Origin: Ophryocystis elektroscirrha
Lineage: Eukaryota > Apicomplexa > Conoidasida > Neogregarinorida > Ophryocystidae
NCBI GenBank assembly: GCA_030141585.1
Contig: JAQIFP010000107.1
Coordinates: 1-12,628 of the forward strand
Reading direction: 5' to 3'
Length of the DNA: 12,628 bases
A program made the position numbers and the translations under genes. Positions 1 through 8,100 of this stretch are shown here, one piece after another (the first letter of the stretch is position 1; each line of letters opens with the position of its first letter). The notes below the pieces were generated by a model, which did not search any database, was not told the DNA's origin, and saw only the letters and a program-made list of their open reading frames with translations.

Positions 1-120
1 GTATATATATGTATATATATGTATATATATGTATATATATGTATATATATGTATATATATGTATATATATGTATATATATGTATATATATGTATATATAT
101 GTATATATATGTATATATTT
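1..120. repeat. Period-10 GTATATATAT tandem array
   Basis: Eleven perfect copies of GTATATATAT (1-110) are followed by a twelfth copy changed at its end and then by degenerate TA-rich sequence to about 145. The unit length equals one turn of B-DNA, so every G falls on the same helical face. The array lies downstream of the last visible SNARE exon. It is probably in that gene's final intron or 3' flank, and it touches the window edge. Confidence 0.95.
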
Positions 121-2625: not shown

Positions 2626-4495
2626 ATGGTGAATCTAAACGTTTTACGACGGAAATGGATTATACCAACTATAATATCATACAATAAACTTTTAATAGAG
2701 TCGATATATACAAATCCGTTTCAGGCAGCTTCATTTTTGCAGTAAAGATTAAATGGTAATTATCTAGTTTATAGGATATCTTTTTGCATAACGACTATTC
2801 TTACTGAACTAGAGTTTTTAGTCAGTGTTTTTGGACTTATTCTATGTATCAAGTTTTGTAATCCATTTATTTTGATTATCCTGTATGTATAGTTATAATA
2901 TGCAGCATATAGGACTATTATACTATATTAATATTAAACTATATATATATATATATATATAAATAATTATTAAGTATTACTTCTATGTAAAGCCCTTATA
3001 TTTATGTTACGCTTATTCTGGTATATATGTAGAATATATTATGCTCTATAGATTTATTTTTTAATATAGGTAGCTATTTGTTTGTGTAAAATGAATTATA
3101 ATAATTGTATATATTATGTACTTTCATAAAAAGTAATAAATTTAGCATAATTATAATAAATGGTAAAAAATGTCATTAAACTTTTAAATAAATTATATTA
3201 AAGGAAATTGTAGTTTATTAGGTATTATTTGCAAATATAAAAATATGCAAATTGTTTTAAATAATAATTATAAATTATTTTGTTCAATGTGAATAACAAC
3301 TAAATATATGAGTGCTCATAACTTTAAATGATCTGTGAAAATTAGGATTTGGCTAAGCGTTGGAATAATTTTTCAAATAGGAGATTTTATTCTACGATAT
3401 TATTGTCTAATCTTAATATGCGGACAACTTGACCGTTACGCAGATCTATCATGTGATTTAACATCACACTATATTCGTGGTCCTCAAGAAACAAGAAATG
3501 ATGCTAGAGAATTAGTAATCTCAATAAATGAGCAAAATCGGCGTGATTTAAGTTTATTGTAATTAATTGTGTTATCGTTATTTCTGATAAAGCTTGATTA
3601 AATTGTTAAGAAGTAAATATTGTCGTTTGCTGATATTTACCACTACTATGTCTTCAATTATTGGATTTTCTAATATATTCTGGTTAATTGCTTCTTATAT
3701 GTCATCTACGGATATCTCGCCAATACCTATCTACAGAAATTCTTTTTTAAAAAAATTATATATAATAAATGTACTTTATATTAATTATTCAATTTGCGTC
3801 AGGGAATCATTATGATAATACGAAATTCCATTACTTTCATTCTTGCATACACAATGCTTTCTCAACGAACTACATCGCAGACACGATATATAGTCCATAA
3901 TTTCGAGATTCCTACTAAAATGTAGCTTACTTAATAATAATTATTTAATATATAGATCCTTAATAACTTGTATAATAAAGATATATATACAGATATATAT
4001 ACATATATATATATATTATACCCACAGTGCTATCTATCTAGTAAATTTATCAAATAAACTCCTATAATAATTTAACATTTACAGTAAATAATTATTATTT
4101 AATAAATATATAATATTTATAATATTCTTATAATAATGAATATTAGGACACCCCAAGATTTAGATAAAATTACAACCAAGAAAATAAAATTTGTCACTAC
4201 TGAAGATACATCATGCAGTTTCAACAGGTTGGATATTGATTTATAGACATTTTTTTTACAGTATTGACTCCAATGTTCTATGTTTGAAAGAGAAAGAAAC
4301 ATTGTGTTCTATCTGCTATGATGTTTATAAAGAGTCTGAAGAAGTTAGATACCTTAACTGCTCTCATTTTTTCCATATACCTTGTATAGATAATTGGCTG
4401 TAAGCATATAAATACGTATATATACAAATATTAGAATAAAGTCCATGCTTTGTCCCATATGCAAAATATCCTGCAAACCTTGTAATGCTAAATAA
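2626..4495 (+). CDS. Multi-pass membrane RING-H2 E3 ubiquitin ligase, eight exons, 337 aa
   Basis: This is a probable membrane-bound E3 ubiquitin ligase. Exons are 2626-2741, 2775-2882, 3346-3558, 3593-3770, 3803-3921, 4147-4227, 4262-4399 and 4435-4495; all phases agree and the stop is TAA. Introns are 33, 463, 34, 32, 225, 34 and 35 nt. Hydrophobic segments lie near residues 40-75, 76-100, 155-185 and 206-223. A linker, TPQDLDKITTKKIKF, resembles the acidic-then-KxKF linker before the RING in plant At1g63170/At1g12760-type ligases. The RING has Cys287, Cys290, Cys305, His307, His310, Cys313, Cys324 and Cys327, a complete C3H2C3 pattern with the CPIC ending. Trp317 sits where E2-contacting RINGs carry Trp. 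The donor at 4228 is GTTGGA, the one non-GTA donor in this gene. Exon 4 could instead begin at 3611 in the same phase. Exons 2 and 5 rest on phase and hydrophobicity; the RING exons are firm. Confidence 0.85.
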
Positions 4496-4566
4496 CAGGG
4501 ACATCAATAAACTCAATATAAACTATCTACTTTATTTTTAATTCATTTTGCAATAATTAATTAATA

Positions 4567-4790
4567 GGTTTAACATGCATTGTCCCAGCATGTGTAGTTT
4601 AAAACATACCGGTAAAGTGCAACTTTTCGGTTGCTGGACGGTATTCCGTATGAAAACCCTAAACCATGCATCTATAATCGTTTAATGTTCTGACAGGTAG
4701 TTTTCCGATATAAAAAAACCTGTATAATGATGCGAAGACTCTAAAAAGTTGCGCATCGGCATTTAATGCCAACAAAATCAACATTTTTTT
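4567..4790 (+). ncRNA. Candidate telomerase RNA (TER) with CCCTAAA template
   Basis: A GC-richer island (33 G/C of 80 bases in 4601-4680) lies in nearly pure A/T DNA and has no coding frame. Bases 4653-4665 read AAAACCCTAAACC, which would template GGTTTAGGGTTTT, about 1.8 units of the TTTAGGG telomere repeat. Directly 5', CATACCGG (4605-4612) can pair with CCGTATG (4646-4652), leaving one bulged C. That helix ends at the base before the template, as template-boundary helices do. Inside it is a hairpin GCAAC-TTTTCG-GTTGC (4619-4634). Other hairpins are ACATGC/GCATGT (4573-4593), ACAGGT/ACCTGT (4693-4723, with facing U and A runs), GATGCG/CGCATC (4729-4757) and GGCAT-TTA-ATGCC (4758-4770). Seven T's at 4784-4790 could end a Pol III transcript. 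At about 220 nt it would match ciliate-sized TERs. Boundaries are approximate, and another structured RNA with a chance template-like motif is possible. Confidence 0.55.
4653..4665 (+). other. Putative telomere-repeat template
   Basis: AAAACCCTAAACC is complementary to GGTTTAGGGTTTT. The 3' part (CTAAACC) would align the chromosome end and the 5' part would be copied. The fourth A at the 5' edge could allow occasional TTTTAGGG units. With A/T-rich local composition, a run holding five C's in this order is unlikely by chance. Confidence 0.55.
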
Positions 4791-4839
4791 GCAATATATA
4801 CATATACACATATATATAAATTATAAATTAAACATATAT

Positions 4840-4843
<4 letters not shown>

Positions 4844-4874
<31 letters not shown>
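4844..4874. repeat. (TA)n microsatellite
   Basis: An uninterrupted AT dinucleotide run between the structured island and the symplekin start. Similar runs occur at about 2940-2960, 6676-6695, 9231-9252 and 10323-10340. Confidence 0.9.
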
Positions 4875-4880
<6 letters not shown>

Positions 4881-5143
4881 CATATTTTCTGCTTAATTAT
4901 TTAATAAAATTATTCAAATTATATTCATTTTTATATATTCATTTGTGTATAATTCAATTTTATATACATATATAGTAGACTTTAAATACACGTAAATACA
5001 TCGATATATTTGATTAAAAGACTTGCTTAAAATATGTGCATTTTATTTTACTTTATAATTAATAAATTAATTATATTTTATTTAAGGTAAATGGAACATT
5101 TTTTGTGTATTAGTAAAATTGTCATAAGGAGAATAAATCTGAG

Positions 5144-8100
5144 ATGGATGCATTAAATGCATATATCTTAGTATCGCAACTAAACCAAGACCCAAGATAT
5201 GTTGAACTAGCATATTTGCAGTCTAAAGAATTACTGTTAACACATAGAAATCAATATAATTATTTACATTCTGTATGGGTTTCACTTTTAGTAATATATT
5301 GAATATGTATATATATATTGTACGTAGGAGTCATCTAATTTTACTGTACAATCAAAAGCATTTCAACTAATCAGTGAATTATGTATTAATATAAACCTTA
5401 AATATCAAAGTTGTTTCTTTAAATTATTGAATGTACGTTTAATACTGTGTATATATATATGCATACATAGACTGGGGAATATAGACATGTGAAAGTTGCT
5501 ACGGAATATGGCGCTAAATTGTTAATTAACTTGAGCGATAATAATACACTAGATAAAATTAAGCATCATATTTTAAATCTTACTAGTATTAACAAGTATA
5601 CTAACTTTAGAAGATGTGAAGTAATTACAGGAAATATAAATCAGAGAAAAGAGTTATGTTTGAAATTTATTGATATAGTTATCAAATTATGCAGCAAATA
5701 CAAGGATGATGAAAATTTATTACTGTGTTTTAAAGATTTTTGTTTAGATCCTCCGTATTGCTTAGGTATATATGGAACGTATTACGCATTCACACAATTA
5801 ATTTATTTGATTCCTACATTGAGATCATCCTCTTTTACGATGCTTAATTATTTAGTGTATTATTTGAAACAGAAACATGAATGTGACCATTTGATCAACA
5901 AGCTTCCTAATTGGTGTAAAAATCGAAATTATGTTTTAACTCCTTGCCCTCTAAAATTGGACAAATTAAGAACATACTTTGTTATAGTTCTGTTATATGT
6001 TATTGATAAAACGAATCATTCATTTTATGAAGTTTTAATTTATCAGTTGGTTGAATGTATCTCTGTATGTCCATCAGAACTCCCTCCATTAGGATATATA
6101 AAAAATAGAGCAAGCATTCTGAAAAAATTATGTTTAACATCAAATAAACATCATTTTATTGATTCATATAATGAAAATACTTCTGTGGCTTGTTATGAAA
6201 CAAAAACTCAACGCATTGTAGATAATAAATTGGAAAAGTAAAGTAGTCAAATTAAACTTAAAATTGCGCGTGTTTAGATTTGATACTGTCAGTTATATAG
6301 CTTCAAAATATAGCCATGAGGAAGTTATTGAGACTATTTTTAATATATTAGACTCATTTGATCCTAGTTTACTATCAATACATACTGGTTCTGAGGAATG
6401 TTTTCAAGATAATAATGGTCCACAAGATACTGACAGCTTTAACCAATCGCTGGCAACTATATTTATCAACAGCAAATGCAAAATTCAGCCCTCTGACATA
6501 ATCTATGGAACTCATTATCGTAGGTTCATTTAAATTTACGTTTATAAGCAGTATACAATAATTCCTTTACATAATTAATAATACTGACAACTCAGTGATT
6601 TTCACATGTCTTACTTCATATTTATTAAAACGCGTATATTTCTACATAATGCCTGTTAGTTTGAAGTATGTACAAGTATATATATATATATATATTCATA
6701 TTTATATTATAGTTGAAAATATGTTTGATATTTAGATATTCAAAATATGCCAAATGAAGTTATTCAACAAAATAAGACAATCTTACAATCTGCTCTGATA
6801 TCAAATCATCACACGTTCACAGTTCCGTGCTATTCCGATGTTCCAGAACCTTTAAAAACCATAGCTGAATTCACAATTGCTAAAAAAAGCGTTTTTAATT
6901 TGGTAATATTAAATAATGAAAAAATGTTTATATTGTATATTATTCAATAATCATATTATAGCTATTTATATTTTTTACGTATTTATGTAATATACTGTAA
7001 AGATATATTAAACTTTAGCTTGTTGAATTAATAAACTCATAAAATTTCTCTAAATGTTTGTACTTATGTAGTGCCATATATATGAAGTTCTAGTTGCTAT
7101 ATATACGTAAGCTTAAATTATATGTTCGTAATACGTATTTTACCTATTAATTAAAATTAAATAAACTAATTATTAAATAAATTAATTATTTAATAAATTA
7201 ATTATTAAATACGTTTCAGTATAGTTTGGGCTTGCTACAAAAGACTTTATTCCCAGTTTATGATGTTTTGGATATTTCAACTTTTCAGCAAACAGCGATA
7301 TCTCTTATTTTAGAAAATATTTGGAACTCTAAAGAACATCAGGTATTAAATTAAATTATATTTACTTACACTTAGTTGGAAAATGAGTTTTCTTCTGCTT
7401 TTTTATCAACTATTAATCTTATGATACAAATTTATTTAAGGGAACTTAGTCTAGAACCCGAATTTATTAAAAAGTCAACTATTTGTATTGAAGATTTTAA
7501 AGATGTATACATATATAATACCCCGCGAAATAATTATGAATATGCATATGAGAAAAGCTGCATGGCTATTTTTAAAATACATAATCCAATTCTTTCTAAT
7601 GAGAATATTGAAATTCCTGAAAAAAATGCAAGGTATATTGTGCAATTTTTTACACAAATTCCTTTGATTCCACATTACGGATTTTATTTATTGTTACATC
7701 TTATGCGTTCAAATTGCTCTACAGCTCGAAAAATTGCATATGCTACAAATTATGCTCTTCTAAAATTACCTAATATACAATCAAAACAAATTGCACTCGG
7801 TTTTATTATATTACAATGTATACAAACTACCCATTATATAGAAGCCGCTCAGTGTATACAGAAAAGAATATATAGGCAACCTCAAATGCTTGGTAAAAAA
7901 TCTGAATACTGGGATCCAGATATCGTTTCTACTGTGTGGATAGAACAATCTTTATACAGGATTATTTGGATGTGCATATTAAAAAAAACAAATGAATTTA
8001 TAAATTTGGACACAAAGTTGACATCTAAATTTACTAACTTATATCAATTTCCTAGAATTTTAACAGAAGCATTGCTTGTTATCGCATCAGGTAATATAAT

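Follow-up and report, generated by a model that had tools for sequence, protein, structure and literature searches.

Telomerase RNA is usually the part of telomerase that is hardest to find, and the question raised by the locus studied here is whether a short non-coding island at positions 4567–4790 is the gene for such an RNA. The island (224 bases) lies in a stretch of 12,628 nucleotides, here called the window, which is one contig (C8) of an AT-rich assembly of 8,008,172 bases in 118 contigs, and holds AAAACCCTAAACC at positions 4653–4665 of the plus strand. Judging from sequence, we consider it likely that the plus strand of the island encodes the RNA subunit of this genome's telomerase, as a compact molecule of about 215–225 nt.

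Origin of the Genome

A myosin reading frame and the ribosomal protein L10a suggest that the genome is that of an apicomplexan or a close relative. Among the best 60 of 150 matches of the myosin frame to PDB chains, Myosin A scored 257–272 bits and other myosins at most 172 bits; the Myosin A chains that were matched are presumably Toxoplasma and Plasmodium proteins. The L10a protein shares 70% identity with its Neospora and Toxoplasma counterparts and as much as 74% with proteins from metagenomes; the rows with the lowest E-values were three mammal and plant records with just 53–56% identity. In a tree of 25 rows, for which we chose the proteins ourselves, L10a clusters with five metagenome proteins (92/99, with a fork inside the cluster that did not resolve) amid mostly alveolates (93/99). 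Another locus of the genome (L036), which had been read as an alveolin, gave no Pfam match.

Composition and Surroundings of the Island

The island has the highest GC fraction (0.366) of 167 segments of 224 nt sampled in the window, contains no open reading frame of at least 80 amino acids and is present in a single copy in the genome. This bears out the first-pass annotation, which had placed the telomere-like motif in a GC-richer, non-coding island. The fold z-score of the plus strand ranks fifth among 167 sampled segments (30 shuffles each), and one of the four segments that outrank it (4651) overlaps the island itself. With 200 shuffles, the z-score of the island was −2.84 on the plus strand; that of the minus strand was −2.61 and, as this strand folds about equally well, the fold leaves the strand unfixed. 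The T7 run at the end of the island and the C-rich template suggest the plus strand, on which the candidate RNA would begin with the GC-rich island and end in the T run (Table 1).

No tRNA was found in the island and no Rfam family matched it at gathering score; a search of the whole window against Rfam gave nothing usable. A permissive search (E ≤ 10, positions 4400–4950) yielded eight weak matches, all eight below the gathering score, and psRNA6 (8.5 bits, below the gathering score) overlaps the island. Telomerase families were absent among the Rfam matches at this threshold and over this interval; RF00025 is the Rfam accession of ciliate telomerase RNA.

Upstream of the island lies a RING-H2 gene, as the first-pass annotation had it, of which the start, the splicing and the stop codon (4493–4495) were read by eye. 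Downstream follows a long, intron-rich gene. The same annotation had called this gene symplekin, a name that found no support: none of six frames taken from it matched a Pfam family (two searched at E ≤ 1, four at E ≤ 0.1), and a protein search with one of the frames returned 265 candidates without a significant one, partial-protein queries of this kind being unable to recover full-length relatives. At the beginning of the window (1–120) there is a regular array of the decamer GTATATATAT, which has a strong fold score and is not telomeric. The translation of positions 196–363 on the minus strand resembles a coiled-coil or SNARE-type helix, and has no Pfam match.

Table 1. Features of the candidate locus and sites of the template motif (positions refer to the window unless a contig is given).
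Feature	Position	Strand	Remarks
Candidate telomerase RNA gene	4567–4790	+	GC rank, fold z-score, single copy
Template AAACCCTAAACC, complement of GGTTTAGGGTTT	4654–4665	+	1.7 repeats; genome telomere CCCTAAA/TTTAGGG
Candidate boundary element, a stretch able to form hairpins immediately 5' of the template	4605–4652	+	Two competing folds
Possible helix that closes immediately 3' of the template	ATGCAT 4575–4580 with ATGCAT 4666–4671	+	Pair probability 0.52–0.59
Possible H-type pseudoknot	4677–4723	+	U-rich first loop, A-rich third loop
Stems of the possible pseudoknot	ATCG 4677–4680/CGAT 4706–4709, crossing ACAGGT 4693–4698/ACCTGT 4718–4723	+	
Stem-loop GATGCG/CGCATC, candidate stem-terminus element	4729–4757	+	Pair probability 0.99–1.0
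Hairpin GGCAT/ATGCC	4758–4770	+	Pair probability 0.75–0.99
T7 run, Pol III terminator-like	4784–4790	+	10 runs of at least seven T on the plus strand of the window (12.6 kb)
RING-H2 gene upstream of the island	4138–4495	+	PF13639, 40.2 bits over 4275–4400
Sites of AAACCCTAAACC outside telomere arrays	C8:4654 (island), C25:82748, C64:22810, C104:11713		

The Template, the Telomere and TERT

Perfect (CCCTAAA)n arrays of 16–18 copies were found at six contig ends, namely at the start of C22, C27, C63, C86 and C108 and at the end of C114, and the telomere of this genome is therefore TTTAGGG. Repeats of the TTTAGGG type at contig ends, to which the first-pass annotation had looked as a check on its proposal, are thus present, and the candidate template is complementary over 12 nt to the telomere of its own genome. 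The array at C22:1–190 changes over to variant TTCTAAA repeats on its inward side. No repeat variant with an extra A was seen in the first 130 bases of the arrays; since A4653, directly 5' of the template, is one A beyond the repeat, the 5' boundary of copying would need to be exact.

The protein partner is encoded in the same genome. At the TERT locus, which spans about 3059–6265 on the minus strand of C28, the RNA-binding domain (PF12009) was matched with 40.4 bits, over the cut-off, and neighboring frames matched RVT_1 (PF00078) with 40.9 bits. A second reverse transcriptase match (26.5 bits) and a weak match to the TEN domain (17.9 bits) at this locus are both below the cut-off.

Other Occurrences of the Template Motif

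The genome-wide scan for the template covered the 12-mer rotation AAACCCTAAACC and the 14-mer CCCTAAACCCTAAA. Outside the telomere arrays the 12-mer occurs at four sites in 8.0 Mb, against one for the reversed control, so that the motif by itself is not rare enough and proves little. Besides the island, the site on C104 sits within an open frame of 742 amino acids; the site on C64 is AT-rich, lies before a helicase exon read by eye and is crossed by an open frame of 76 codons; and the site on C25 belongs to a degenerate interstitial telomere-like tract, with CCCTAAACC/CTTAAACC variants according to a by-eye reading. The GC fraction of these three sites is 0.24–0.30 and their minimum free energy (MFE) ranges from −23.0 to −32.2 kcal/mol; the corresponding values for the island are 0.366 and −53.1 kcal/mol. 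The signal is the conjunction of the motif with an isolated, structured island that resembles a non-coding RNA gene.

Rival loci that combine a USE with a template were sought with the pattern CCAGKTG, a gap of 76–136 bases and AACCCT, which misses templates lacking AACCCT as well as other spacings. Four loci were returned, against four for the reversed control, and all four lie within open frames of 159–586 codons. Three of them match the template only as far as AAACCCT; at C42:110295 (minus strand) the match amounts to 10 nt (AAACCCTAAA) but is inside a frame of 219 codons. Within the limits of the CCAGKTG-gap-AACCCT pattern, no better candidate than the island was found. The 18-mer around the template also matched two records from viral contigs, both in open frames (551 and 504 codons), and these matches were put down to chance.

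Predicted Structure of the RNA

In the MFE fold of the island, positions 4650–4662 are unpaired, with a hairpin on their 5' side and the ATGCAT/ATGCAT helix on their 3' side. When the flanks were shuffled and the template was kept, 3 of 200 controls were as stable as the island. The mean unpaired value of the template is 0.65, and 47% of 200 controls with shuffled flanks were equally open.

For the stretch directly 5' of the template, the global fold pairs ACGG with CCGT (4638–4641/4646–4649); folded alone, the stretch pairs ATACCG with CGGTAT (4606–4611/4639–4644), a pairing whose probability in the global fold does not exceed 0.01. A boundary stem drawn by hand was discarded, as it is not favored in the global fold (pair probability about 0.01). 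The possible pseudoknot was equalled by 4 of 1000 shuffles, but by 33 of 967 sliding segments, and with the main stem given, an equally strong crossing stem appeared in 31% of 2000 conditional shuffles. A boundary element and a pseudoknot are possible according to these models, and on one sequence they are indistinguishable from chance. The predicted single-sequence structure is compatible with a telomerase RNA, and is not probative.

Promoter Elements and Other Non-coding RNAs

An upstream element, TTATANNCCAGGTGYGC, precedes the model matches for U6 (on C62) and U5 (on C118), with its end 50 and 52 bases away, respectively. The same element overlaps the first five bases of the SRP RNA match on C2 (35.1 bits, below the gathering score), which leaves the true 5' end of the SRP RNA uncertain. 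When up to three mismatches were allowed, a scan of the genome returned 138 places and the reversed control 111, so most of these places are noise. The five best (0–1 mismatch; on C2, C62, C118, C1 and C2) are all at RNA genes: SRP, U6 and U5, identified by model, and U4 and U3, which were recognized by eye downstream of this element and lie outside the island. Hence, TTATANNCCAGGTGYGC is probably the snRNA-type promoter element of this genome.

No USE-like element was found within 120 nt upstream of the island: of 626 control windows, 365 scored at least as high as the best site in this interval. None turned up in the 120 bases ahead of the RNase P RNA either (119 of 626 controls as good), and some Pol III-type genes in this genome may do without a USE. 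Its absence at the island weakens the claim for a telomerase RNA and does not kill it; because of this absence, we do not file the island RNA under the type-3-promoter class. The T-run terminator that is a feature of the type-3 Pol III class is present, in the form of a T7 run of a kind that is not very rare here, and the island RNA is likely to be terminated in the Pol III manner.

The RNase P RNA (C42:200794–201034) and the RNase MRP RNA (C42:201045–201275) were both located by their models, neither of which matches in the island (Rfam, 4400–4950). The two matches follow one another head to tail at a distance of 10 bases; together with the lack of a USE-like element upstream of RNase P, this arrangement points to a shared transcript or an internal promoter. 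The U2 snRNA was not found in the genome by its Rfam model (46 of 713 candidates scored); it may be absent from the assembly, diverged, or simply overlooked by the search.

Alternative Explanations

The first-pass annotation had read the island as a telomerase RNA gene. This reading gains from the TTTAGGG telomere, from the presence of TERT and from the location of other non-coding RNAs elsewhere in the genome; the absence of a USE and structural hallmarks that do not go beyond chance count against it. The same absence of a USE would also suit another structured non-coding RNA, for instance a snoRNA, U1, U2 or a small RNA specific to the lineage, that holds the 12-mer by chance. Three further 12-mers outside the arrays do exist by chance or decay, U2 was not recovered among the candidates scored, and U1 was outside the search. 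We nevertheless regard such an RNA as unlikely: RNase P, RNase MRP, U5, U6 and the sub-threshold SRP match are located elsewhere, as are U4 and U3 by eye, the eight permissive Rfam matches around the island all stay below the gathering score and, by a rough estimate, fewer than 0.1 such conjunctions of motif and island would be expected per genome.

The island might also be a structured UTR of a neighboring mRNA, either on the 3' side of the RING gene or on the 5' side of the gene that follows. Both neighbors are on the plus strand and the stop codon of the RING gene, in our by-eye reading, precedes the island by about 72 bases, whereas the T7 run at the 3' end of the island, the exact complement of the telomere and a GC content that exceeds that of all non-overlapping segments sampled in the window speak against a UTR, which we hold to be decidedly improbable. 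A functionless remnant of an interstitial telomere, or the scar of a mobile element, has a precedent of sorts in the degenerate telomere-like tract on C25 (by-eye reading). Yet the island holds just 1.7 repeats with no decayed repeats seen nearby, it is present in single copy and, unlike the tract on C25, it is structured and GC-rich; an origin of this kind appears very improbable.

Discussion

If the island is indeed the gene for the telomerase RNA, RNA polymerase III would most likely transcribe it, ending in the T7 run. TERT would hold the RNA with AAACCCUAAACC (4654–4665) single-stranded in its active site, where the AAACC at the 3' end of the template would align the 3' end of the chromosome and the seven bases on the 5' side of this segment would serve as the copied part, adding one TTTAGGG repeat; the template would thereby be divided into seven copied and five alignment positions. 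Copying would be halted before A4653 by the structured RNA that adjoins the template on its 5' side, and TERT may be bound by the downstream hairpins, perhaps together with the pseudoknot.

Ciliate telomerase RNAs are shorter than 200 nt according to a published account (PMC12133305), and the island is near to them in size. The first-pass annotation had suggested that a compact telomerase RNA in an AT-rich protist would be novel should its lineage lack one. Compactness as such is not new in view of the ciliate RNAs; it would be new for the Apicomplexa, which are among the groups where the inference of telomerase RNA failed, as stated in PMC9841428. Among the open PubMed Central papers listed, none announced a compact apicomplexan telomerase RNA in its title or in the opening of its abstract.

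Further likenesses to the ciliate RNAs of the Tetrahymena type are a template possibly flanked by structured RNA at either side and an end that resembles a Pol III terminator, and ciliates are alveolates too. In contrast to these RNAs, the island matches no telomerase covariance model at E ≤ 10 and would copy TTTAGGG; a stem I was not identified in it, nor was a type-3 promoter demonstrated. Telomerase RNAs of the Pol III type-3 kind are described as common to the Diaphoretickes (PMC12133305). The island shares with the RNAs of plants and the wider Diaphoretickes a TTTAGGG-type template, a Pol III-like terminator and a possible boundary element and pseudoknot, and differs from them in that the USE-like element of this genome's U6, SRP and U5 genes is absent. 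The TER of Plasmodium falciparum is likewise a proposed telomerase RNA of an apicomplexan. With a length given as about 2.2 kb in PMC5855555, it is about ten times longer than the island.

We tentatively propose, with slightly more doubt than conviction, that the island represents the first telomerase RNA of compact size from an apicomplexan-like lineage, one that may have left the ancestral USE-driven class but retained a Pol III terminator and a size near that of the ciliate RNAs. If this is true, its USE-less promoter would account for the failure of USE-based searches to find the apicomplexan telomerase RNAs, and it would suggest that the Plasmodium TER of about 2.2 kb is derived or not the whole story. 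The telomerase RNA of the Apicomplexa is an open gap, with a failed inference on one side (PMC9841428) and the long Plasmodium RNA on the other (PMC5855555). With a candidate of 220 bases, a matching telomere and TERT in one genome, the question becomes testable, and the candidate supplies a size class and a promoter expectation for searches in other apicomplexans.
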